From assembly GCF_004004565.1 (NCBI RefSeq), contig NZ_SACM01000001.1, positions 372,001 to 436,000 of the forward strand: a DNA stretch of 64,000 bases, read 5' to 3'. Source of the stretch: Inhella crocodyli (GTDB taxonomy: Bacteria > Pseudomonadota > Gammaproteobacteria > Burkholderiales > Burkholderiaceae_C). Shown piece after piece: positions 41,170-61,793 of the stretch. How positions within the stretch are numbered: position 1 is the stretch's first letter; every line of letters starts with the position of its first letter. A program made the translations under genes and the position numbers. The notes below the pieces were generated by a model, which was not told the DNA's origin, did not search any database, and saw nothing but the letters and a program-made list of their open reading frames with translations.

Positions 41170-43461
41170 CTATGAGCGATGAACTTCCGGCCGCAAGAGC
41201 CTCAGCCCGTTGAACACCACCAACAGGCTGGCCCCCATGTCGGCGAAGACCGCCATCCACATGGACGCATTTCCAAACACCGCCAGCACGAGAAAGATCG
41301 CCTTGATGCCCAGAGCAAGGGTGATGTTTTGAACCAGAACTGCATGGGCCCGCTTGGACAGGCGGATGGTTTCCGGGAGCCGCCGCAGGTCGTCGTTCAT
41401 CACCACGATGTCGGCGGCCTCCATCGCGGTGTGGGTGCCGGCACCACCCATGGCAAAGCCGATGTCGGCCTTGGCCAGGGCCGGGGCGTCGTTGATGCCA
41501 TCGCCTGTCATGGCCGTCATGCCACGGGTGCTCTGCAGTTCCTGGATGGCGTTCAGCTTCTCGTCCGGCAGCAAGGGGCCTCGAACCTCGTCGATCCCGG
41601 CTTGCCGTCCGATCGCTTTCGCCGTGGTCGCGTTGTCTCCGGTGAGCATCACCGGCGTCACGCCCAGCACGAGAAGCTCCTGCACCGCCTGCGTGGACGT
41701 AGGCTTGATGCGATCGGCGACCGCCACCAAGGCCAGCACCTCGTGCGCGCTGGCCAACAGCGTCACGGTGCGTCCCTGCTGCTCGTGCGCTGCTAGACGA
41801 TCCTCAAGCGCAGTGCTGCAAAGGCCCTGTTCTTCCACCCAACGGTGGTTAGCCAGGGTCAGGAGCTCGCCGCCTACGGTGCCATGAACGCCCCGCCCGG
41901 GCAAGGCCGCAAAGTCTTCGACCGGCCGCTCCTCAGCGCCTCCCGCCCCCAGCAGGCCGGCAGCAATCGCCTTGGACACGGGGTGGTCGGACCGTGCCGA
42001 CAGGCTCAGTGCAAGCCCACGAAGAACGGCCTCGGATCGGCTGGCGGTGATGGACTCGAAGGCCACGAGCGCGGGCTTGCCCTCGGTCAAAGTCCCGGTC
42101 TTGTCGAGCGCAACGACCTTGAGTTTGCGGGCTTCCTCCAGGTACACCCCGCCTTTGATCAGCACGCCACGCCGTGCCGCAGCCGCCAGACCGCTGACGA
42201 CGGTGACCGGTGTCGAGATGACCAGGGCGCAGGGGCACGCGATCACCAAAATCACGAGCGCCTTGTAGATCGCTTGCAGCCAAGTCCAGTCCATCAGCCA
42301 AGGCGTCAGCGCGGCGACCAGCACCGCCAGCACAAAGACGGCGGGCGTGTAAATCGCGGCGAAACGGTCGACGAATCGCTGCGTCGGCGCCCGACTGCCC
42401 TGGGCCTGTTCGACCGCCTGGATGATGCGGGCGAGCAGGGTGTCACCCGCCGGCGCCGTGGTTCGGATCTGCAGCTCGGATGCCGCGTTGATGGTTCCAG
42501 CGAACACCTCGTCGCCCGGGGCCTTGTCGACGGGAATGCTTTCACCGGTCACGGCGGCTTGATCCACGGCACCGGTACCGGATGACACGACCCCATCGAG
42601 CGCAAATCGCTCCCCGGGGCGAACGCGAACAATGCTGCCCACCGCAATGGCCTTGGCCGCGGTGCGCGCCCAGCTGCCGTCGGCTTGGCGCACGTCGGCT
42701 TCCTCGGGTGCGAGCGCCAGCAGGCTGCGTATGGCGTTTCTGGCGCGGTCCACCGCGCGTGCTTCAATGGCTTCGGCGATCGCGTACAGCGCCATCACCA
42801 TGGCCGCCTCCGGCCACTGACCGATCAGGAAAGCGCCGGTGACCGCCACTGTCATCAGCGCGTTGATGTTCAAGCGACCAGCGCGCAGTGCTGCGAGGCC
42901 CTTGCGGTAGGTGCCGAACCCCGCCAGAAAGATGGCGACGGCGGCCAAGGCCATTTTGGCGATGTCCCAAGGGAGGGCGGATGGGGCAAAGAACGACAGA
43001 CCCTCCGCGCCGACGGCCAGCAAGAGTGCCAGCACCAGGCGCGGCAAGCCGTCGCTGAGCCACGTTCGCGGCGCATCAGGGTTCGGACTGTCCGCGTCAT
43101 GGCCGGCGTATTGCCCCATGGCCTGCACCCCACCGTTGACCGGACTTGCAGCGGCCGTCTTGATCACGTCCGCCTGGAACCCCGCCTTGCGGATGGCGGC
43201 GATCGCCCGCTCCAGCCGCTCGCCCTGAGCATCGAGCGACAAGGTTCTGCGGCCCAGGTCGAATCGGAGCGGGTCGAGGTCCTCGAAAGGCTGCAGCACC
43301 CGACGGATCTCGGACTCTTCACTTGCGCAATCCATGTTGGCGATGCGGAGCGTGACTGTTCCTGTTGCTTCGGGCGCGCCGCCAGGTTCGCTGATGGTCA
43401 GTTCGCCACACCGATCGGTGCAGTGGGCGCTTGCCGAGTGGTGGGAGTTTGGATTGTTCAT
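41170..43461 (-). CDS. cadA: heavy-metal translocating P-type ATPase (Zn/Cd/Pb type)
   Basis: A 763-residue PIB-type ATPase exporting divalent soft metals. The N-terminus is His/Cys-rich (residues 1-20), followed by one heavy-metal domain with MDCASEE at 43-49. Six to eight membrane helices are present, with the actuator TGES at 305-308, the CPC metal site at 409-411 ([11 protein letters not shown]), the phosphorylation site DKTGT at 453-457, SDHP near 497 and [11 protein letters not shown] near the end of the P domain. CPC plus the MDCxxEE domain points to Zn, Cd or Pb, not Cu. The start is only seven bases past the -10 of its promoter (see that entry). Confidence 0.93.
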
Positions 43462-43467
43462 GTGGCT

Positions 43468-43498
43468 ATTGAAAACCCTGAAGCTGGTGCAGAGTCAA
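43468..43498 (-). promoter_or_regulatory. MerR-type (CadR/PbrR) promoter of the P-type ATPase gene
   Basis: Read leftward: TTGACT at 43498-43493, a 19-bp spacer carrying an imperfect dyad (CTCTGCACC...TTCAGGG), and TTCAAT at 43473-43468. The 19-bp spacing is the hallmark of promoters activated by metal-sensing MerR proteins, and the sequence resembles known PbrR/CadR promoters. With the -10 ending six bases before the ATG, the transcript would start at or next to the start codon. Confidence 0.85.
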
Positions 43499-43531
43499 GC
43501 GACTTCTTCCACGGTTGCTAGAAAAGGCCGA

Positions 43532-43555
43532 ACCTTGAAGTCGGTTTAGAGTCAG
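43532..43555. promoter_or_regulatory. second CadR-operator-like sequence overlapping the cadR start region
   Basis: ACCTTGAAGTCGG then TTTAGAGTCAG, matching the operator inside the ATPase promoter (from 43476) at 18 of 24 positions in the same orientation. It lies three bases before the cadR ATG and lacks a recognisable -10, so autoregulation of cadR is the likely role. Confidence 0.6.
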
Positions 43556-43558
43556 TGC

Positions 43559-44116
43559 ATGACGATCCTCTCCACCGGAGCCCCGAAGCTCCTCAAAATC
43601 GGGGCCGTGGCTGCGGCGAGCGGCACCCCCGTCGAAACCATCCGGTTCTACGAGCGAGAGGGCTTGCTCGCCGCAGCGGCGCGCACCGAATCGAACTACA
43701 GGACCTACGGCGCGGACGACGTCGAGCGCCTTCGCTTCATCCGCCGTTGCCGCAGCCTGGACATGGCGCTTCCTGAGATCCGCGCGCTGTTGCTCATCGC
43801 AGACCGGCCCGCGCAGAGTTGCGTCAGCGTGAACGGCATCCTCGATGCCCGCATCGGGCATGTGAGTGCCCGAATCCGGGAGCTGAAGGACCTCGAGAGG
43901 GCGCTCAAGCTTTTGCGTCAACAGTGCGCCGAGCCTCGGGCCGTTGCCGGCTGCGGGATCTTGCGCGGGCTTGGTGGTGGTGATAACTCCGTCGCTTTTG
44001 ACCTCCGCGACAAGCAGAGCCAAAGCCGAGGGACTCACCGGTACTCGGTGGCGCCACCGTGTGCAGTGGCACCCGGGAAGCCGCCGATTCCTCTCGTGAG
44101 CGGCCCAGGGCTTTGA
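43559..44116 (+). CDS. cadR: MerR-family metal-responsive regulator (CadR/PbrR group)
   Basis: A 185-residue regulator. The winged-helix domain (about 10-80) has LKIGAVAAASGTPVETIRFYEREGLL, then the dimerisation helix and three metal-site cysteines at C88, C123 and C132, the pattern of CadR/PbrR/ZntR sensors. It is divergent from the ATPase gene with the operators between. A C-terminal extension of about 40 residues beyond the last Cys is longer than usual for the group. It lacks the His-rich tail of P. putida CadR. Which of Cd, Pb or Zn it prefers cannot be told. Confidence 0.88.
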   Translation: MTILSTGAPKLLKIGAVAAASGTPVETIRFYEREGLLAAAARTESNYRTYGADDVERLRFIRRCRSLDMALPEIRALLLIADRPAQSCVSVNGILDARIGHVSARIRELKDLERALKLLRQQCAEPRAVAGCGILRGLGGGDNSVAFDLRDKQSQSRGTHRYSVAPPCAVAPGKPPIPLVSGPGL

Positions 44117-52391: not shown

Positions 52392-53657
52392 TCATTCGGG
52401 CAGCAGGCCGAGGCGCTGCCGCAGGGTGGCGATGGCCAGGTTCAGGTCGATGCGAGCGCGGGCCAGGTCGCGCTGGGCCTGTCCGGCCTCCAGCTCGACC
52501 CTCAGGCGCGTTGGCAGGTCGGTCTCGCCCAAACGGAAGGATTTGTCGAAGAACTGGCGGGTCTCGTCCGCCAGCCGGGCACGGTCTCGGGTTGCCTGCA
52601 GCACCGCGCGGGCCGCGTCCAGCGCCGACTGGGCGCTGCGCTGCTCGGCCATCAGGCGCTCGCGCTCTCGCGCCAGCAGCACTTCGGCTTCGGTTTGCTC
52701 GGCGCCAGCGCTCAACACGGCGGCCTTGTTGCGATCGCTGCTGCCCAGCGGAAACCGCAGGCCGAGCGTCACCGTGCCGTTGCTGGCCTCGCCGCGGGCA
52801 GCGCGGTCTCGGGTGTGAAGCAGCGTGAGCTCGGGGCTGGCGCGCACCTGCGCCTTGGCCAGCGCCGCTGCACTGCGTGCGGTCTGGGCCTTGGCTTGCA
52901 GGGCGGCCAGCAGTGGGTGCGCCGGTGCGTCACCCGCTGGCTCGGGCTCCGGCGTGGGGGCCATCAGCAGCGCGGCCTCAGCAGGCAGGCCCAGCAGCGC
53001 GCGCATGGACTGCTCGCTCGCCATCACCCGGGTGTGAGCCTGCGCCTGGTCCGACACTGCCAACAAAACAGCCGCATCGGCTTGGTTCTGGTCGGCACGC
53101 GACAACTCACCCGCCTTGACACGCCGAGCGACATCCGAGGCCAGCGCCTGCGTGGACTGGAGGCGCTCTTGCGCGGCGCGCAACTCTTCGCGCTCACGCA
53201 GCAGCCCCCACCAGTGCTCTCGCAGGCTCTGCGCCAGTTGCCACTGCGCGAGCAAAGCCTGGCGCTCCACGGCGTCCAGGTGCGCATCGGCCAGGGCTTG
53301 GCTGCGTTCGCGCTCGCCCGGCAGCCATAGCGGAACGGCAACACCGAACTCCAATTCTTGGGCACCCTGACGGCGGTTGAAGCGGTCGCTTCGAACGGAG
53401 GCTTCTAGAGCCGCAGGTGCGGGCGTCCAGTTCGACGCGGCCTGACGCAGGGACTCACCTGCCTGGCGCCGTTGGAGAAGCGCCGCGGCCTCAGGCTGGC
53501 GCTCCCAGGCCTGCGCAAACGCCAGCGGCAGTGTCAGGGGTGGGGTGGAGGAAGTTTGCGCATGGCCGATCGCCACGCTGCCAAGAGAAAGCGCGAGGAC
53601 GGTCGATGCCGTCCAGGCAAGGCGCGCCCGCACTCGTGAATGAGAAAACCGAGACAT
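52392..53657 (-). CDS. czcC: TolC-family outer-membrane efflux channel (CzcC-like)
   Basis: A 421-residue outer-membrane factor of the tripartite metal efflux pump. A signal peptide (about 1-33) is followed by the two repeats of the OEP family, rich in long Ala/Leu/Arg/Gln helices (SLREHWWGLLREREELRAAQ ... ALDAARAVLQATRDRARLA). It ends with the typical IDLNLAIATLRQRLG segment. It is separated from czcI by 127 bases and from the next gene by 20, all on one strand. Confidence 0.88.
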   Translation of the reverse strand: MSRFSHSRVRARLAWTASTVLALSLGSVAIGHAQTSSTPPLTLPLAFAQAWERQPEAAALLQRRQAGESLRQAASNWTPAPAALEASVRSDRFNRRQGAQELEFGVAVPLWLPGERERSQALADAHLDAVERQALLAQWQLAQSLREHWWGLLREREELRAAQERLQSTQALASDVARRVKAGELSRADQNQADAAVLLAVSDQAQAHTRVMASEQSMRALLGLPAEAALLMAPTPEPEPAGDAPAHPLLAALQAKAQTARSAAALAKAQVRASPELTLLHTRDRAARGEASNGTVTLGLRFPLGSSDRNKAAVLSAGAEQTEAEVLLARERERLMAEQRSAQSALDAARAVLQATRDRARLADETRQFFDKSFRLGETDLPTRLRVELEAGQAQRDLARARIDLNLAIATLRQRLGLLPE

Positions 53658-53784
53658 CCGATGCTCCGAAGTGGAAGAAGAACCACGGGGAGATCGGCGA
53701 AGGGACGGCCACTAAGGCCCGGTGTGCGTCAGTGCGCGGCAAGGGGCCGCGCAGATTGGCAGTGGGGGGGGCTTCCCTCGCCGA

Positions 53785-54117
53785 TCAGGCGAGGGTCGGC
53801 CACTGAGGGCGTTCAGGTCTCGGCGATGGCCGAGTGGCGACGAGCGACGCGACGGGCGCTGCGCCTTCAAAGCGAGCCATGGCAACCGTCAGCACGTCCA
53901 GGCTCAACGGCAGCGCCGTGAGGTGGCCGTGGCAGTGTCCACCCACAGCAGCACAAGCATCGCCACCCGATGCGTCGGCTCCACCGTCTGCCGTCTCGTG
54001 CACGGACGCATGAACAGCCGCCGCTTCATGGGCGTCAACGCAAAGATGGGCGACGCCTGACCAGGCCAGCTGCAAGGGCAGCAGGACGGCGAGGAGAACG
54101 AGCAACCAGCGTGGCAT
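53785..54117 (-). CDS. czcI: CzcI-like small periplasmic protein
   Basis: A 110-residue protein with an N-terminal hydrophobic export segment MPRWLLVLLAVLLPLQLAWSG and a mature part containing His and Cys positions (HLCVDAHEAAAVHA, DACAAVGGHCHGH). This size, the LPLQLAWS segment and the place in front of czcC match CzcI, a proposed regulator of czc expression. It is the first gene of the leftward operon; the promoter is expected in the 57 bases to its right, where no clear -35/-10 is seen. Confidence 0.8.
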   Translation of the reverse strand: MPRWLLVLLAVLLPLQLAWSGVAHLCVDAHEAAAVHASVHETADGGADASGGDACAAVGGHCHGHLTALPLSLDVLTVAMARFEGAAPVASLVATRPSPRPERPQWPTLA

Positions 54118-54174
54118 GCGTGAAAGTTTATCTTGGGCGCCGCAAAACCCTTTGCAGGCTGCGGAGCAGATGGT

Positions 54175-55257
54175 TCATGGGTGAGCGTGCTGGTGATGGG
54201 CGTCTGGAAAGTGCACGTGGCTGTGCACCAGGTGTTCATGCCGATGCGCATGGCTGTGGCGGGTCCCCGGCTCCACCGGCACGTCGTGGCTGTGCGTGTG
54301 ATGCGGGTCGCCGTCGTCGTGGCTGTGTTCATGCTCGTGAACCATCGGCTCGTGAACATGCTCATGCGCGTGTCGCTCCGTCAGGTGCAACCAAATTCCG
54401 AGGGACATCAGCGCCGTGGCCACCATCAAGCTCGGCGTCAGGCTTTCGCCGAGCCAGACCAGGGCGACGGCCGCTCCCACGAACGGAGCGACCGAGAAAT
54501 AGGCCCCTGTGCGCGCCGACCCCAGGTGTCGAAGACCGACCACGAAGAGCACCAGGCTGGCACCGTAAGACGCGAAGCCGATCAGACCTGCCGCAGCAAC
54601 TTGTGGCCACGCCGGCCAATCGGCACCCGCCCCCAAAGCCAGAAGCAGATTCGTCAGGCCAGCGGCCAGACCTTTGGTCATGGCAATGAAGCTGGCGTCG
54701 GCCAAAGCCACCTTGCGCGTCAAGTTGTTGTCGATGGCCCAGGCCAAGCAGGCACCCAGCACAGCCAGCGCCGGCCACAGATCGAACCAAAGTCCGGTCT
54801 CGCCTGGCGCACGCGCCTGGGGCCAGGCCAACACCACACAGCCGGCGGCAATCGCCACCATGCCCAACGCGATGCGGCGATCGAAGTTTTCCTTGAAAAC
54901 AAACCACGCCAGCAAGGCCGTGAGGACCCCCTCCACGTTGAGCAGCAGAGAAACCCCCGAGGCCGGCAAGCGCGACAGGCCCAACATCAAAAGCGCCGGC
55001 CCGAGGACACCGCCTGAAGCGATGGCGCCCAACAACCAGCCCGTGTCGCCCGGCTGCAATCGAACACCGGCGAACAGCCCTCCGCGCGTCAGGCGCCACA
55101 GAGCCAGGCCAATGCCAGAGCCCAGGTAAAGCAGTGCGGCCAGCATCCAAGGACTGACTGGGCCGAGCAAGGGCTTGGCCAAGGGCGTTCCCAATCCGAA
55201 CAGGACCGCCGCACCGAGTGCCGCCCAAACCCCAAGGTTGGTGTTGAACCGGGCCAT
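54175..55257 (-). CDS. EamA/DMT-superfamily transporter with long His-rich cytoplasmic or periplasmic tail
   Basis: A 360-residue protein: ten predicted membrane segments (residues about 5-290, two EamA repeats) followed by a tail of about 70 residues with roughly 25 histidines in HxH and HH patterns. The tail should bind several soft or borderline metal ions. EamA proteins usually move metabolites, so a metal-binding tail is unusual and suggests a metal or metal-complex exporter. ATG 55257 is used. It is the last gene of a three-gene unit led by a CadR-type promoter. Confidence 0.85.
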   Translation of the reverse strand: MARFNTNLGVWAALGAAVLFGLGTPLAKPLLGPVSPWMLAALLYLGSGIGLALWRLTRGGLFAGVRLQPGDTGWLLGAIASGGVLGPALLMLGLSRLPASGVSLLLNVEGVLTALLAWFVFKENFDRRIALGMVAIAAGCVVLAWPQARAPGETGLWFDLWPALAVLGACLAWAIDNNLTRKVALADASFIAMTKGLAAGLTNLLLALGAGADWPAWPQVAAAGLIGFASYGASLVLFVVGLRHLGSARTGAYFSVAPFVGAAVALVWLGESLTPSLMVATALMSLGIWLHLTERHAHEHVHEPMVHEHEHSHDDGDPHHTHSHDVPVEPGTRHSHAHRHEHLVHSHVHFPDAHHQHAHP

Positions 55258-55259
55258 GC

Positions 55260-55874
55260 TCAATGCATCACGCAGTGGCAGTAGACGAATTCCTGCACTT
55301 GGCCCGATGGGGTCAGGTGAGATTCGCTCAAGTGGGCTTGCAACTCAAAGCAAGCGCCAAACTCGGCATGCAAGGCCTCCGCCTCGTAGCGCATCACAGG
55401 CAAGCCACTGCACTGCAACGGCCCATTGGGTCCGAATGCGGCCACGATGACATGCCCGCCCGGCCGCACGGCCCGTCGCACCTGCGCGACGTACGCACGC
55501 CGCTGATCGGCCGTGGTCAGGAAATGGAACACGGCTCGGTCATGCCAAATGTCGTAGGCCTTCTCAGGGAGCGCCACCTTCACAACGTCGCCCACCCACC
55601 ACTTCACGTCCTCGGCCCTGCGGCCCAAGCGCTGACGCACAACGGAGAAGGCCGACTCCGACAAGTCAAGCAGGGACACGTCAAACTGCCCATCCCCAAT
55701 CAGGTCGTCCACCAGCGTCGAGGCGCCGGCGCCGACATCGATGACGCTGCGAGGTTGGCCCGCAGCGATGCCTCGAATCAGCGCCAAGGAGCGGTCGGCA
55801 TGCGCTTGGTACCAGCTCACTGAATCGACTGACTTGCTGCGGTACACGCTTTCCCAGTGGGACTTCGGATTCAT
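55260..55874 (-). CDS. class I SAM-dependent methyltransferase of the metal-regulated operon
   Basis: A 204-residue methyltransferase with motif I SVIDVGAGASTLVDDLI near 43-59, SLLDLSESA for the acidic strand-2 end, and YDIWHDRAVFHFLT around motif IV. It ends YCHCVMH, a possible thiol pair. Such enzymes next to metal genes could methylate a metalloid, a thiol ligand or a chelator; none can be proven here. It ends two bases before the EamA start and begins 13 bases after the transglutaminase-like gene. Confidence 0.8.
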   Translation of the reverse strand: MNPKSHWESVYRSKSVDSVSWYQAHADRSLALIRGIAAGQPRSVIDVGAGASTLVDDLIGDGQFDVSLLDLSESAFSVVRQRLGRRAEDVKWWVGDVVKVALPEKAYDIWHDRAVFHFLTTADQRRAYVAQVRRAVRPGGHVIVAAFGPNGPLQCSGLPVMRYEAEALHAEFGACFELQAHLSESHLTPSGQVQEFVYCHCVMH

Positions 55875-55887
55875 GAGGGTCTCCAAA

Positions 55888-56619
55888 TCAAGGCTCGCTC
55901 CCGCGAATCCTATCCACACGGGCATTCATGCGATGACGGACGAAATGCTCAAACAACCACTGCTTGACCGGTGACAGGTTGGAACCACGAGCCGCAAAGA
56001 AGGCATCCGGGTCATCAAAAAGTCCGAAATCCTCGGCGATGCCCTCTCGCTGGATGTACGTCGATTGGCCGCACCAGGCGACCGCGGGCTGTTGGAGGTC
56101 CGTCGTCGCCACGCCGTACCCGCAAAACGCCCGAGCCGCTGGGAAGCGTTCCTGCAGGGCGCTGAGGTAGGGTTGGTCAAGGATGAAACCCTCCAGCTCG
56201 ATCCAGCGGCCGTCCACCCAAGCCTCGACCCAACTGTGCAGGATGCGCGACGGGGTGAGTGGGTAGGCCCACGCGGGGATGGCGCCACGCTGCAGTTGCT
56301 TGTCGATGGTGAAGCCATGCAAGCGGCAGGGCACATTCAGTGCGCGCAGCAAGGCCATCAGCAGCGTTGACTTGGTGTTGCACTGGCCGTACCCCTCCGC
56401 GAGGACCTGGGACGCAGGAATCTCATCCCGCGCGTTGTAGCCAAATCGAATGTCAGTGCGGACGAACTCGTAGGCGGCGCCAACGCGGTCAAGCGGTGGC
56501 AGCCTGCGCCAACCTCGGCATTCAATGAGTCGAGAGATGCTGGGATCGTTGTGATTGAGCAGCTTCGTGACTCGCAGCAAGACCTGCATGTCGGGTGGTG
56601 ATGAGTCGTTAGGCGCCAT
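55888..56619 (-). CDS. transglutaminase-like cysteine protease-fold protein
   Basis: A 243-residue protein with the transglutaminase core: catalytic Cys C80 in GYGQCNTKSTLLMALLRA, His H128 in RILHSWVEAW, and an acidic residue at 141-143 (WIELEG) where the family normally has Asp. There is no signal peptide, so it is cytosolic. The longer frame to 56664 would start inside the promoter, which fixes ATG 56619. It is the first gene of the unit with the methyltransferase and EamA genes. A peptidase or amide-forming role on a small thiol compound is a guess. Confidence 0.8.
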   Translation of the reverse strand: MAPNDSSPPDMQVLLRVTKLLNHNDPSISRLIECRGWRRLPPLDRVGAAYEFVRTDIRFGYNARDEIPASQVLAEGYGQCNTKSTLLMALLRALNVPCRLHGFTIDKQLQRGAIPAWAYPLTPSRILHSWVEAWVDGRWIELEGFILDQPYLSALQERFPAARAFCGYGVATTDLQQPAVAWCGQSTYIQREGIAEDFGLFDDPDAFFAARGSNLSPVKQWLFEHFVRHRMNARVDRIRGSEP

Positions 56620-56645
56620 GGTGACATCGTTGATCTGGTGCCAGG

Positions 56646-56676
56646 ATTGAAAACCCTGAACCAACTACAAGGTCAA
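56646..56676 (-). promoter_or_regulatory. second MerR-type (CadR/PbrR) promoter, driving the transglutaminase-methyltransferase-EamA operon
   Basis: Read leftward: TTGACC at 56676-56671, a 19-bp spacer with an ACCTTGTAG...TTCAGGGT dyad, TTCAAT at 56651-56646. On the + strand its first 15 bases, ATTGAAAACCCTGAA, are identical to those of the ATPase promoter 13 kb away (43468-43482). The start codon lies 26 bases downstream of the -10. Confidence 0.8.
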
Positions 56677-56724
56677 GCGCCTTGTTTGAAACCTCGTGTG
56701 ATCGAGCTCGGACGAGCCTCCGCG

Positions 56725-58746
56725 TCAACACTCCAACCACGTCGCCGCACGTTCCTCCGCAGGCAAGCGTCGGTCGGCCACCAGGAGACTATGCGCCAGT
56801 TGATTGAAAGACTCCGCGCCACGCCAGAACCCAAGGTCGTAGCGAATGTGAGCGAGATGAAGCGCATAACACTGCACGAGGTCGCCTCGACTGGCGCGCG
56901 ACTCGCCCCGAGCAAGTTTGCGGGTCGGTTTGGCGGTGGGAATCGCGCCATACCTGGCTTGGTACATCGACAGCGCTTCTCGCATCGCAGCAAACGCCTC
57001 CTTGGGGCTTGCGCCAGTGACTTCCAACTTTGCGTTGACCGCCCTGACCGTGTAGCCCTCAGGGGAGCAAAACAACCACACGGACATTCGCTCTCCCCGA
57101 GGCAAGAAAAGCCGGTGCGCCTTTGCTGACGATTGCTCAGCATGGGTTGAGTCGATCGCGCGCCAGCCATCTCGCCGCGTCCAGCTCAAGGTGGGGCCGG
57201 CGGTGAGTTGATCCAAGAGCCCCTGGCGACGCGCTTGCACGTTGCACCACGCTGCCCGCCGTTCGGTCTTCGTCATCGCCGTCATGGTCCAGTCGATGCG
57301 AACGGTTGCGGGGTGGCTTGCGAATCGCAGCCGACTGCCCTTGGCTGACGCCGCCCAGGTCACCTGGTACGGGGGCGGTGCGGTGTGCCAGTTCCAGGCC
57401 TCTGCCTGCCCGCCTGACGAGGCGGAATACCCATTGACCTGTTCGGTCGCGCTTCGCCAGTCCGCCAAGCCGCTGCATATGGCCTGCATGGCGCAAGCTT
57501 GGGCTCGCCGCCAGGCATGCGTCACCCTTGCCGCGGCCACTTGGCGCGTGAGCCAACTCTTCGCGTTCTGGGGCAGTTCGTGCTCGGGTCCGCAAGGGGC
57601 GCCGACCCAGGGGTCCTCCAGCCAGTCCTGAAGCGCCCGCTGGCTGGGGTCCAAGGCTTGCCGGTAGGGCCAACGGCGGTTCATCGCGAGTCGTTCCATC
57701 GAGAAGCAGAACACCAATTCGGCAAAGCCGACCATGGCCTGGTGGTGGGCTCGCATCTGGTCTGCCATCGCCAAGGGGTCAGGGTTCCCCAAGAACTGCA
57801 TAGCAAATCGGTCCGAGTACCGCCCAACATGGCGTCGAATGTGGCGATTCATCGCGCGGTAGGCCACCGTGGCTTCCGTTTGTAGCCACATGCGGTCTGT
57901 CGAAGCAGTGGCGAAGCGGAAATCCTGGGGCTGCACCACTTTCGATCCGCGCGTCGTCGGCGCTTTCAACTGGTGCACCGAGATGGTGGCCGTGGCAAAG
58001 CCCCCATCGGCGGATGCCCCTTGATCGGAGGGGGGCGCGCTCAAGCCCAGTTGGGCGCTCCAGGCGCCCAGCGCCGACATGAACACCCGGTCGTGCGCTT
58101 CTTGAGCGTGTTTGCGCTGCGTCCACGGTCGTACGACAGTGCAGATGTCCTCCAGCCAGGCGGCGACAGACCTCATGGGTCGAACGTCATCTGCGCAAAG
58201 CGTGGGTCGGCGACAGGTCGTGCTGGTGAAAAACGCGGTCTGACCACAGCGGCACTGGCCCGCATGCGTGGCCCCGACCATCCTGAGGATCGGATCGAAC
58301 GGCGCGCCGCACCGGCAACGCGAAACCAGATCGCATCGGTGGATCGGGCAGCGATCCAATGCCTTCAGAGAGAACAGTGCCGAGTGATAGCCACCTGCCG
58401 CACAAGCGGGGCAGATCCGCAGCCCTGAACCTACCAAGCATCGAACAGCGTCCGGCATCCTGCCCAAGTGCGACCACTCGAAAGCATGGGCGGGCTCGCC
58501 CATCGCGCGGGCCAACTGATCGGTGTGGACGGCGCCTGCCCGTTGTCGGTTGCCACCGTACGGAAGTTCATTGAAGAGAAGATCTGCTCTGTAAACCGAG
58601 GGCGCTTGCCAAGAGCCGACCAGCAATTCCTGCAACTCTTTGGCTCGCATGGCATTCAGGTGCATCAGCCGCTGTAGCGTGTGCCAGAGGGAGGCGAAGG
58701 GCAACACGCTGCCCGAGTGCCAGGTCAAGCTAAGTCCGGCGTTCAT
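56725..58746 (-). CDS. tniQ: TniQ/TnsD-family transposition targeting protein (large form)
   Basis: A 673-residue protein. The TniQ zinc-finger region is clear: CPACAAGGYHS at 112-122, CPIHRCDLVSRCRCG at 133-147 and a further CRCG at 165-168, together with the FSLKALDRCP segment. TniQ of Tn5053 is about 400 residues, TnsD of Tn7 about 500; this one is longer, with about 450 residues after the zinc region. TniQ/TnsD proteins choose the target site. It follows tniB by three bases. Target specificity is unknown. Confidence 0.85.
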   Translation of the reverse strand: MNAGLSLTWHSGSVLPFASLWHTLQRLMHLNAMRAKELQELLVGSWQAPSVYRADLLFNELPYGGNRQRAGAVHTDQLARAMGEPAHAFEWSHLGRMPDAVRCLVGSGLRICPACAAGGYHSALFSLKALDRCPIHRCDLVSRCRCGAPFDPILRMVGATHAGQCRCGQTAFFTSTTCRRPTLCADDVRPMRSVAAWLEDICTVVRPWTQRKHAQEAHDRVFMSALGAWSAQLGLSAPPSDQGASADGGFATATISVHQLKAPTTRGSKVVQPQDFRFATASTDRMWLQTEATVAYRAMNRHIRRHVGRYSDRFAMQFLGNPDPLAMADQMRAHHQAMVGFAELVFCFSMERLAMNRRWPYRQALDPSQRALQDWLEDPWVGAPCGPEHELPQNAKSWLTRQVAAARVTHAWRRAQACAMQAICSGLADWRSATEQVNGYSASSGGQAEAWNWHTAPPPYQVTWAASAKGSRLRFASHPATVRIDWTMTAMTKTERRAAWCNVQARRQGLLDQLTAGPTLSWTRRDGWRAIDSTHAEQSSAKAHRLFLPRGERMSVWLFCSPEGYTVRAVNAKLEVTGASPKEAFAAMREALSMYQARYGAIPTAKPTRKLARGESRASRGDLVQCYALHLAHIRYDLGFWRGAESFNQLAHSLLVADRRLPAEERAATWLEC

Positions 58747-58749
58747 GGC

Positions 58750-59769
58750 TCACTGCGGTCCAGAACGCTTGCGCAAGCGGGGCGTGATGGCGGTGACGAC
58801 CGCCATGAGCATGGTGTGGCCCGTGCCCTCGACGATGGACCGGAGCGTCGAAACCGCCATCAGGTCCGACGGGTCGGCACCGCCGGCAATTCGGAGGAGC
58901 GCATGGCGGGCTGACATCGCAACGGAGCGCATCGGGAACTCGATCGGACCCTCGTACCTCTCCGGCAGCGCATCGACCATGGCTTGCTGCAGCGGCTCCG
59001 CAAGCGCCGCCATCCGGAAGCCCTCCTCCCAGGCTCTGGGCGCCAAGCCCTGCGTGAACGAAAGCCCCGACCCCCTCGGCCATTCCGCCCCGTCGTCATA
59101 GCCAGCAAGGACGTATCGCAACTCATCGACGCCTCGGACCCCGTTGAACCTCTCTGAGGAGAGCATGAAGCGTGCTGCGACGTGTGCGCCGCCGGTCATG
59201 GCCATGCCGACGGGCTCGTCAAACACTTGCACAGAGGCCACGGAGAACACGCACAGACGCAGCCGTTCCAATTCGAGACGGCTGTGAAGCTCAACGAGCC
59301 ACATCCATTCGCGCTGCGTCATGCTTTGGGCTTCATCGATCACCAGCACCACAAATCGGCCGCCCCCCTGATCTGCCAAGAGCGCCAGCCGTTCCACGAG
59401 CATCTCCTGGCGGTTCATGGGACTGCGCACCGCCTTGGCCAGCGGATGCCGGCTGGCATGCAGCAGGTGCGAGTGAAACTGCCCTGGCGAACTGGCGCCG
59501 CTTTCTGAATGGCTCCACACGACCATCGGGACGTGGCCCCCATGACGCTCGGACAGCAGCGCTTGAAGCCAGTGGTGCACAGCGCTGGACTTGCCAAATC
59601 GAGACGGGCCGAAGATGGTTGCGCCATCGACTTGGTCGTCGATCCACCCGGCCACCCGGTCCACCATCCTCGCAATGGCCGGCGTGAAGAGGGAGTACTC
59701 CCGCGTCACCACGGGATGGTTTCGCGGAACATGCGCCGGAACGAGCGGCTGCGGGGTATGGGCCTCCAT
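58750..59769 (-). CDS. tniB: TniB/TnsC-family AAA ATPase of the transposon
   Basis: A 339-residue AAA+ ATPase that links target selection to the transposase. The Walker A motif GPSRFGKSS is at 54-62 and the Walker B VLVIDEAQ at 141-148, followed by the sensor region LRLCVFSVASVQ. ATG 59769 overlaps the tniA stop (TGATG arrangement); in-frame GTG 59772 is an alternative. Order tniA-tniB-tniQ on one strand is that of Tn5053/Tn402 elements. Confidence 0.9.
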   Translation of the reverse strand: MEAHTPQPLVPAHVPRNHPVVTREYSLFTPAIARMVDRVAGWIDDQVDGATIFGPSRFGKSSAVHHWLQALLSERHGGHVPMVVWSHSESGASSPGQFHSHLLHASRHPLAKAVRSPMNRQEMLVERLALLADQGGGRFVVLVIDEAQSMTQREWMWLVELHSRLELERLRLCVFSVASVQVFDEPVGMAMTGGAHVAARFMLSSERFNGVRGVDELRYVLAGYDDGAEWPRGSGLSFTQGLAPRAWEEGFRMAALAEPLQQAMVDALPERYEGPIEFPMRSVAMSARHALLRIAGGADPSDLMAVSTLRSIVEGTGHTMLMAVVTAITPRLRKRSGPQ

Positions 59770-61793
59770 CACCAAGTCTTCGCGTTGCGACGGGGAGGCA
59801 AAGCACCATCGCTCGGTCTGATGCTCGACACATCTGGACTCGGCGGCGAAGCGGCACCCGGTTCGCCTTGGTTACCGGCCCTCGGAGCAGGCGCAGCGAC
59901 TACGGCCGCGGTCTCGGTCACGAGCGGCTTGGAAGCGGCTTCGGCTTGCCGCTGAAGAACGCGACGGGCCTCCAAATAGGCCGGGTGGGGCGGCAACTTC
60001 TTGTCCTTGGTCGCCTCGGCAAAGCGAATCAACTCCTCCACGCCGTCGCACTGCGTTGAAAGATGGAGAACGCGGCGCTGCGCCAGTGCACGGATCGACT
60101 GGCGCATGTACAGGGTGTGCGGGGAGCGGTGCCAGGGCGGACCTGCCCGCACCACACCAAGAAACTCGCCCTGCTTCGTGGAAACGCTGGCGAAGCGGGC
60201 GTCGTCTTCGTCTTCCAGCTGCACCCAGAGCAATTTGCCGATCAGGTCGGCTCTCAGCGCGAGCCACTCGGCTGAATAGCTGGCGTTCAGAAAATTGAAA
60301 TGCGGTCTGCGCCCGCTGCGGATGCCGCCTTTGACGGTGCACAGTTTGCGGATGCCCACCATCCGACGAACTTCGCTGGCATCGGCTTGTCGAAGCCGAC
60401 CAGGGCTTCGATCCACCAAAAAGTCCAGTTGGGTCAGTGGGCTTCGCCAACCGAGGCCCGAATGAGGCCGCGCGTTGTAGTTGGCGATCAGGGTGTCGAG
60501 CAGCTCTTCGGCGTACTCCAACTGGAACTGCCGATCGACTGCGGCTTTGTCAGGGTCAGAGCCACGCTTGTCGGCAGGCTTGCTGCCCGTGGTCGATGCC
60601 AATCGGTGAAAGCCACCGGCTGCGAGTTGCTTAAAGAAGGACTCGATGAATGGGCGATCGTCCTTGCTGCGCCGATGGCTGAAGCTGCTGGGGTCTTGTG
60701 GCTTGAGGATGTTGGCCCCAACGACGTCCCGCAATTGCCGCTCCACCCGCTGGCAGACGTTGGCCAATGCACCGTCGACGCTGAACTCGTCCCAACAAGC
60801 CCCCAGGTATCGCTCGTGGTGAGCCGATGGCAAGGCCGCCGAATCCGAGTAGGTTTCCTTGCTCCAATGAATTTCACGGCGAGCCCATCGCGTCAAGGCG
60901 CTTTTGACGGCCCGAAGTACGTCCTCGGCGCTGCATTCCCAGCGCAGGCTGAGGTAGTAGCCAAGAACGGCCCGACTCGCCACTTCGATGATGACGATCA
61001 CCCAGATTCGGTGGATCTTGCGAGGTTCGTGCCCGCCGTGAGGGGATGGCACCAAGACCACCATTCGGGCGTCGATCTTGTGGGCATCGCACTCGACGCG
61101 CTGAAAGACCTTCAGATCAGGTCGACGGGTCCCATCGCCGGCGCGAGCCTTGCGCTCTGCCTCCTCACCGCCCAAAAGTTGTTGCTGCCGCCGTGGGTTC
61201 GCTTCAAGCACCCGGTCGATGTAGCGGTAGATGCTGACGCAACCCAGCCTCGCCACATTGAAGGGCCATTCACCGCGCGCTTCGTAACCCTCATCTCGAA
61301 GTTGCTTGAGAAACCACTGAAAGAGCTCCTGCTTGGGCCGCTTGGTGGACGCCAACTTGGGGGCTCGTCCGAGGATCTTCTTGTCAAAACGCGCCTGTAG
61401 TGCAGCGCCCCCAGGAGACTCGAACAACCACTGCATGACACCCGCGCTGCCCCTGCCCGTCGCGGTCTTGATGCGTGGGGCATTGGCCCGGGTGTACGGC
61501 TCCACGCGGTAGAACGGCAACGCGCCACGCCAACCCATCAGTGTTCCGTCTGGGTGTTGCGCCAAGCAGCGACGGGTGATCAATCGGTGCACCGTGGGCA
61601 GTGCAATCCCGGTGTCTCGCATCAGGTCGGCGTCAGAAGCGCCGGCCAGGTACATCGTCACCGCCTGCCGGCGCTTCAGGTAGAGCGCCCGGCGTTTGTC
61701 CGAAAGCGCGTCTGGGTCGACTTCCGGCCATTGCTGTACGTCCACCGCTGCGATGTGGCCTCGCCTCGCTCCGATCCGGGCTGAACTCGCCAT
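59769..61793 (-). CDS. tniA: TniA/TnsB-family DDE transposase
   Basis: A 674-residue Mu/TnsB-type transposase. N-terminal helix-turn-helix domains (about 30-200) are followed by the rve catalytic core; D236 in ECDAHKID, D340 in FSVDGALA and E384 in RPFIESFFKQL are read as the DDE triad, then a Mu-type C-terminal beta-barrel (about 480-600). It is longer than Tn5053 TniA (559) and closer to Tn7 TnsB (702). No tnsA-like endonuclease gene is next to it, so replicative (cointegrate) transposition would be expected. Confidence 0.9.
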   Translation of the reverse strand: MASSARIGARRGHIAAVDVQQWPEVDPDALSDKRRALYLKRRQAVTMYLAGASDADLMRDTGIALPTVHRLITRRCLAQHPDGTLMGWRGALPFYRVEPYTRANAPRIKTATGRGSAGVMQWLFESPGGAALQARFDKKILGRAPKLASTKRPKQELFQWFLKQLRDEGYEARGEWPFNVARLGCVSIYRYIDRVLEANPRRQQQLLGGEEAERKARAGDGTRRPDLKVFQRVECDAHKIDARMVVLVPSPHGGHEPRKIHRIWVIVIIEVASRAVLGYYLSLRWECSAEDVLRAVKSALTRWARREIHWSKETYSDSAALPSAHHERYLGACWDEFSVDGALANVCQRVERQLRDVVGANILKPQDPSSFSHRRSKDDRPFIESFFKQLAAGGFHRLASTTGSKPADKRGSDPDKAAVDRQFQLEYAEELLDTLIANYNARPHSGLGWRSPLTQLDFLVDRSPGRLRQADASEVRRMVGIRKLCTVKGGIRSGRRPHFNFLNASYSAEWLALRADLIGKLLWVQLEDEDDARFASVSTKQGEFLGVVRAGPPWHRSPHTLYMRQSIRALAQRRVLHLSTQCDGVEELIRFAEATKDKKLPPHPAYLEARRVLQRQAEAASKPLVTETAAVVAAPAPRAGNQGEPGAASPPSPDVSSIRPSDGALPPRRNAKTW

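Follow-up and report, generated by a model that had tools for sequence, protein, structure and literature searches.

A 64,000-nt stretch of the Inhella crocodyli genome (NZ_SACM01000001.1, positions 372,001-436,000 of the forward strand; assembly GCF_004004565.1), referred to here as the window, carries an operon that is likely to respond to cadmium, lead or zinc through CadR, and the transglutaminase-fold protein (TG) encoded by its first gene is likely to be a cytosolic enzyme that is induced by metal and plays an accessory part in operons for Cd/Zn/Pb export. It is TG that is the apparently undescribed part: the transporter of the operon is of a known kind, and the trio formed by TG, a methyltransferase (MT) and this transporter is local. 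The operon appears to sit within a cluster of metal-resistance genes. In the proposed mechanism, CadR, whose gene lies about 12.5 kb away, would distort the 19-bp-spaced promoter when loaded with metal and thereby switch on the genes for TG, MT and the CnrT-like exporter, with TG acting as a conserved Cys-His-Glu enzyme, a companion of Cd/Zn exporters from several unrelated families.

The operon and its surroundings

The TG gene runs from 56619 (ATG) to 55888 (stop) on the minus strand and encodes 243 aa with a Pfam Transglut_core domain. It is followed on the same strand by MT, a class I SAM-dependent methyltransferase of 204 aa (55874 (ATG) to 55260; Pfam Methyltransf_25), and by a CnrT-like DMT/EamA transporter of 360 aa with a histidine-rich C-terminal tail (55257 (ATG) to 54175; Pfam EamA). 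The tight spacing seen in the first-pass annotation is confirmed by the gene coordinates, with gaps of 13 and 2 bases. Next in order on the minus strand come a small CzcI-like or DUF2946-like protein (53785-54117; 42.3 bits against NF045614 CzcI, under the cut-off of 100), a TolC-family protein, a 189-aa protein, and CzcB-like and CzcA-like proteins. No clear terminator was found in 53500-56900, where four terminator-like sites compare with 3.4 expected from shuffles, so the operon may run on past the transporter.

Beyond the CzcA-like gene are a small ORF, a two-component pair, cadA with the divergent cadR, and YnfA. The cadA product (41170-43461, minus strand) is a heavy-metal P-type ATPase that scores above the cut-offs of both TIGR01525 and TIGR01512. 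The presumed regulator of the TG promoter, cadR (43559-44116, plus strand), has TIGR02047 CadR-PbrR as its best NCBIfam match, at 143.3 bits against a cut-off of 151.45 and 40 bits ahead among 14 matches.

Directly upstream of the TG promoter, three minus-strand genes occupy 56725-61793, in the position held by cadR/cadA in relatives; some 50 bp lie between their end and the CadR box. They encode an AAA_22 ATPase, a protein whose integrase-core match is weak and falls short of the cut-off, and a 673-aa protein for which Pfam gave no match. By their arrangement they may be a Tn5053/Tn7-like tni set and so possibly a transposon of the tni type. An inverted-repeat search for the ends of a mobile element gave weak arms alone.

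The CadR-type promoter

The promoter proposed for the operon, TTGACC-N19-TTCAAT, is found at 56646-56676 on the minus strand, with a 23-bp box at 56652-56674; a dyad of CadR type lies between its -35 and -10, and the spacer of 19 bp falls within the 19-20 bp expected of promoters under CadR/PbrR. The 15-mer ATTGAAAACCCTGAA, which it was said to share with the cadA promoter (43468-43498, minus strand), has exactly two copies in the window, at 43468 and 56646. The assignment to the CadR/PbrR type was strengthened by a matrix built from the upstream regions of seven promoters at other loci, the window being left out. In a scan of the window, this matrix ranked the cadA promoter first (44.9) and the TG promoter second (35.2), followed by a box beside cadR (43525-43555; 23.5) and a next match at 6.3. 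The maxima in 15 first-order Markov windows of 64 kb were 6.6-12.3 in 14 and 24.4 in one, so the box beside cadR, taken alone, is not beyond chance.

A consensus for Pseudomonas aeruginosa CadR is given as AACCCTGTAGTTACTACAGGGTT, in 11-1-11 form, in the accessible text of PMC12301328. The TG box agrees with it at 18 of 23 positions, the best match in the window, and the cadA box at 16 of 23; the maxima in 20 Markov windows were 14-17, all under the 18 of the TG box. When a derived pattern was run over the whole genome with up to three mismatches, it matched three times: at the cadA promoter, at the TG promoter and before a CDF gene. At this third CadR-type promoter (L160, C12:81049-81079), a second CadR-like gene is divergent from the CDF gene, and a TolC-like gene lies farther on.

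The -10 of the TG promoter, TTCAAT, is weak. A sigma-70 scan with 16-18 bp spacers found no promoter in 53500-56900, which is what a spacer of 19 bp in the TG promoter would lead one to expect. The closest relative of TG among the matches listed (L003, 79% identity; 80 of 455 matches) has a CadR-like match divergent from the TG match, 105 bp apart, with TTGACT-N19-TTCAAT in between. CadR-type control of the predicted TG promoter is well supported by these sequence comparisons. The regulator may be another protein, since cadR is not adjacent and the genome holds a second CadR-like gene.

A conserved enzyme of the transglutaminase fold

TG matches Pfam PF01841 Transglut_core (E 9.6e-15, 55.2 bits, gathering cut-off 23), its sole Pfam match at E ≤ 0.001; at that threshold the phytochelatin domain is absent, and Pfam indicates neither a signal nor extra domains. 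With the structure model (pLDDT 89.3, pTM 0.89), Foldseek returned four matches at E ≤ 0.001, namely three chains of 3isr (TM 0.43 by query) and TglA; the matches after these, among the best 50 of 217, are mostly animal transglutaminases. A sequence profile of TG run against structures found 3isr only, at E 0.059.

The presumed catalytic triad is Cys80-His128-Glu143. Cys80 and His128 are kept in 49 of 49 alignment rows and Glu143 in 47, the other two, which are the most distant rows, having Asp. Asn81, Thr82, Lys83, Arg99, Ile105, Glu132, Trp139, Asp148 and Gly199 are likewise invariant in all 49. Cys98 occurs in 29 of the 30 rows from a metal context and in 13 of the 19 others, and the same counts hold for Cys166; at these positions three of the other rows have Thr and three have Ser, L147 having both.

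The transglutaminase triad is Cys-His-Asp. TG resembles the transglutaminase-core cysteine enzymes (PF01841; 3isr) in Pfam domain, fold and presumed catalytic Cys-His pair, but differs from them in having Glu for Asp and in its own conserved segments, GQCNTK and HGFTI. TG probably works as an enzyme in the cytosol. On a Dinoroseobacter shibae plasmid (L126:6971-7534), TG is annotated with 564 bases, compared to 771 in related plasmids, and still precedes a CDF gene.

Neighbourhoods of the TG gene

TG relatives occur sporadically, in 6/399, 1/369 and 14/398 genomes of three samples that overlap in some of their genomes, the Inhella genome being counted. Neighbourhoods were scored in all 17 other genomes from the three samples with a TG match at E ≤ 1e-45, which are proteobacterial. 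An exporter was found within 3 kb of TG in 12 of the 17, a count that includes what is probably a cytochrome-oxidase copper ATPase (in L148) and treats as a miss L140, where the locus begins near a contig end and an RND gene lies just past 3 kb. A CDF or P-type ATPase exporter is within 150 bp of TG in 11 of the 17, and a MerR-type gene within 3 kb in 11; no metal genes stand beside TG in five. The reference proteins were partly drawn from TG loci, and the identical set, applied to 15 control stretches elsewhere on the same contigs, gave 0/15 both for exporters and for MerR-type genes. The TG relative in L148 (57% identity) has apparent cbb3 oxidase genes on both sides, and a copper-type P-type ATPase is encoded about 3 kb away.

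Of 455 sequence matches, 80 were kept and the 18 closest (L003-L020) studied, L021-L082, at identities of 44% or less, being left out. Within L003-L008, an exporter lies within 3 kb in five of six loci, L003 having no such match, and a MerR-type gene in four. Among 13 TG loci hand-picked from 198 plasmid records, an exporter adjoins TG in 11. In six annotated loci (L086, L119, L123-L126), TG overlaps the start of a CDF gene by 11-14 bases.

The company of exporters takes several forms. Betaproteobacterial loci have cadR divergent from cadA-TG, after which come either a CzcI-like gene with czc genes or a two-component pair. In one order-level genome the genes run CadR, YnfA, a small CDF, TG, a CzcI-like gene and czc genes; the small CDF may resemble, by description, CdfX, which the accessible text of PMC11580412 places near cadA in C. 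metallidurans and describes as being without a cytoplasmic domain. An Acinetobacter plasmid carries cadR divergent from TG-CDF, and Roseobacter-group plasmids carry a MerR-type gene, TG and CDF, two of them together with a PEMT-type or other methyltransferase. In a Flavobacterium the order is a Fur-type gene, TG and a P-type ATPase, and on two MAG contigs a P2-like ATPase precedes TG. The link is looser on a Mycolicibacterium plasmid, where a cadmium-resistance transporter lies 1.6 kb upstream. The association is therefore found in beta-, gamma- and alphaproteobacteria, in a Flavobacterium and, more loosely, in the Mycolicibacterium plasmid. In Acinetobacter portensis, TG adjoins an IS66 element, with a short MerR gene farther up and without an exporter.

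Other TG genes are found without metal genes. No exporter or MerR gene was seen near TG in any of 11 Gram-positive or spirochaete loci, and in five loci (L009, L010, L147, L156, L157), from Paenibacillus and three gammaproteobacterial genomes, an AraC-type gene directly precedes TG. Because of these metal-free AraC-type loci, TG must do something beyond metal resistance. In L011-L018 and L020, TG is closely similar among Treponema, Eubacterium, Parvimonas, Peptoniphilus and Ruminococcus. These are anaerobes of the mouth and gut, and the similarity suggests that TG has passed from one phylum to another.

The metal-free contexts and the sporadic distribution would both be expected if TG served defence or detoxification in general and travelled in mobile metal islands as a passenger, with no role in metal resistance. 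This is distinctly unlikely, given how closely TG is coupled, at times by overlap, to exporters and to MerR-type promoters in several groups, and given the TG tree. On that tree of 49 rows, with context labels assigned by the analyst and changes counted as gains or losses, metal context needs six label changes, at least four of them forced by well-supported branches, against a shuffled mean of 15.1; the metal-context rows form one clade in 0% of 200 bootstrap trees.

What TG may do

Since its partners are exporters from unrelated families, the target of TG is most likely one that they all share, not a single pump. A doubtful guess is that TG transfers or cleaves amide bonds of a metal-binding thiol peptide, for example glutathione, by which the metal would be buffered or released for export. 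That TG founds a widespread metal-induced family which remodels glutathione or another thiol ligand inside the cell, and so prepares Cd, Zn or Pb for whichever exporter is present in the island, is an unlikely extension of the guess. Phytochelatin synthase is a metal-linked cysteine enzyme of the papain-like type. As such it can be likened to TG in its way of working only, and it was not present among the best 50 of 217 Foldseek matches.

TG could instead modify or process a protein of the resistance system, such as the cytosolic part of an exporter or the regulator, by proteolysis or cross-linking, as its nearest folds would suggest: the putative transglutaminase-like protease 3isr, TglA and the animal cross-linking transglutaminases. 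This is quite improbable, given that the partners come from unrelated exporter families and that L003 lacks an exporter match within 3 kb.

The methyltransferase and the transporter

MT matches Pfam Methyltransf_25 at E 6e-12; its 12 NCBIfam matches are all below cut-off and name no specific family, and its relatives in the PDB are weak only. Relatives at E ≤ 1e-70 are present in 28/369 genomes of the order, the Inhella genome being counted. A general link between MT and metals was considered and found to be weak: within flanks of up to 1.5 kb, an exporter-type match occurs in five of the 28 MT loci, and the neighbours are mixed on three plasmids hand-picked from 55, where MT lies beside chrA, without a metal gene, and beside ECF sigma and anti-sigma genes, respectively.

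The transporter has 25 histidines in its last 70 residues, in agreement with the earlier count of about 25, and the histidine-rich tail is conserved in seven of seven aligned sequences. It is about 50% identical to CnrT over 93% and is best described as CnrT-like, that is, of a known nickel exporter type by sequence; with this identity and the same tail, the idea of a new kind of transporter was rejected. CnrT, encoded in cnrYXHCBAT of C. metallidurans, is described in the accessible text of PMC11647595 as an inner-membrane nickel efflux system. The two proteins are alike in their DMT/EamA domain and tail, but cnrT directly follows cnrA in C. metallidurans, whereas the window transporter lies behind a CadR-type promoter. 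The family is common (50/369 genomes of the order at E ≤ 1e-80, the Inhella genome being counted). Within flanks of up to 1.5 kb, 28 other transporter loci include seven with a MerR-type gene, two with a heavy-metal P-type ATPase, three with an RND gene, two with a P2-type ATPase and 14 with none of these four kinds. A further set of six transporter loci was hand-picked from 69 plasmid records.

The first-pass annotation had proposed that the trio is a new system: a ligand, made or modified by TG and MT, would leave the cell together with metal through the transporter. Despite the tight one-operon spacing, and although another genome has the order P-type ATPase - EamA - MT, this is very improbable indeed: the trio is found only in this window, the co-occurrence it predicted failed in that neither MT nor the transporter stands beside TG in any of the 17 sampled TG genomes or in L003, MT is near only one of the 28 other transporter loci, and CnrT-type relatives of the transporter come without TG or MT.

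In L003, the order is a CadR-like gene divergent from TG - CzcI-like - TolC - CzcB - CzcA, and a CzcI-like gene is also next after TG in L083, L084, L138, L139 and L140. Since relatives have the CzcI-like gene directly after TG, MT and the transporter look like additions inserted between the two, and the P-type ATPase - EamA - MT order elsewhere suggests that they may have entered as a pair. On the L084 plasmid, MT and TG are both present, 14.7 kb apart.

Relation to known resistance systems

Resistance of the CadR/ZntR type is usually described as a sensor plus a pump. The CadR-CadA and CadR-CDF divergons are similar to the loci described here in regulator type, in the dyad promoter with its 19-bp spacer and in their P-type ATPase or CDF exporter; they differ in that the CadR-type promoter in the window would drive TG-MT-EamA at a site separate from cadA. 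For plasmid CadR-CDF divergons there is an account in PMC1526738, the accessible text of which contains no occurrence of the word transglutaminase in that account. A transglutaminase-like gene, RSP_2417, which may or may not be kin to TG, is listed as mutated in cobalt-evolved Rhodobacter in the accessible text of PMC11236759. A search of the open literature, with subscription journals and supplements mostly outside it, found no paper tying a TG enzyme to a metal-resistance operon.

If TG does remodel thiols, it would be a functional bacterial counterpart of phytochelatin synthase from another family. The presence of TG in operons with unrelated pumps suggests that there is an unstudied enzymatic or chemical step in resistance to cadmium, zinc and lead.
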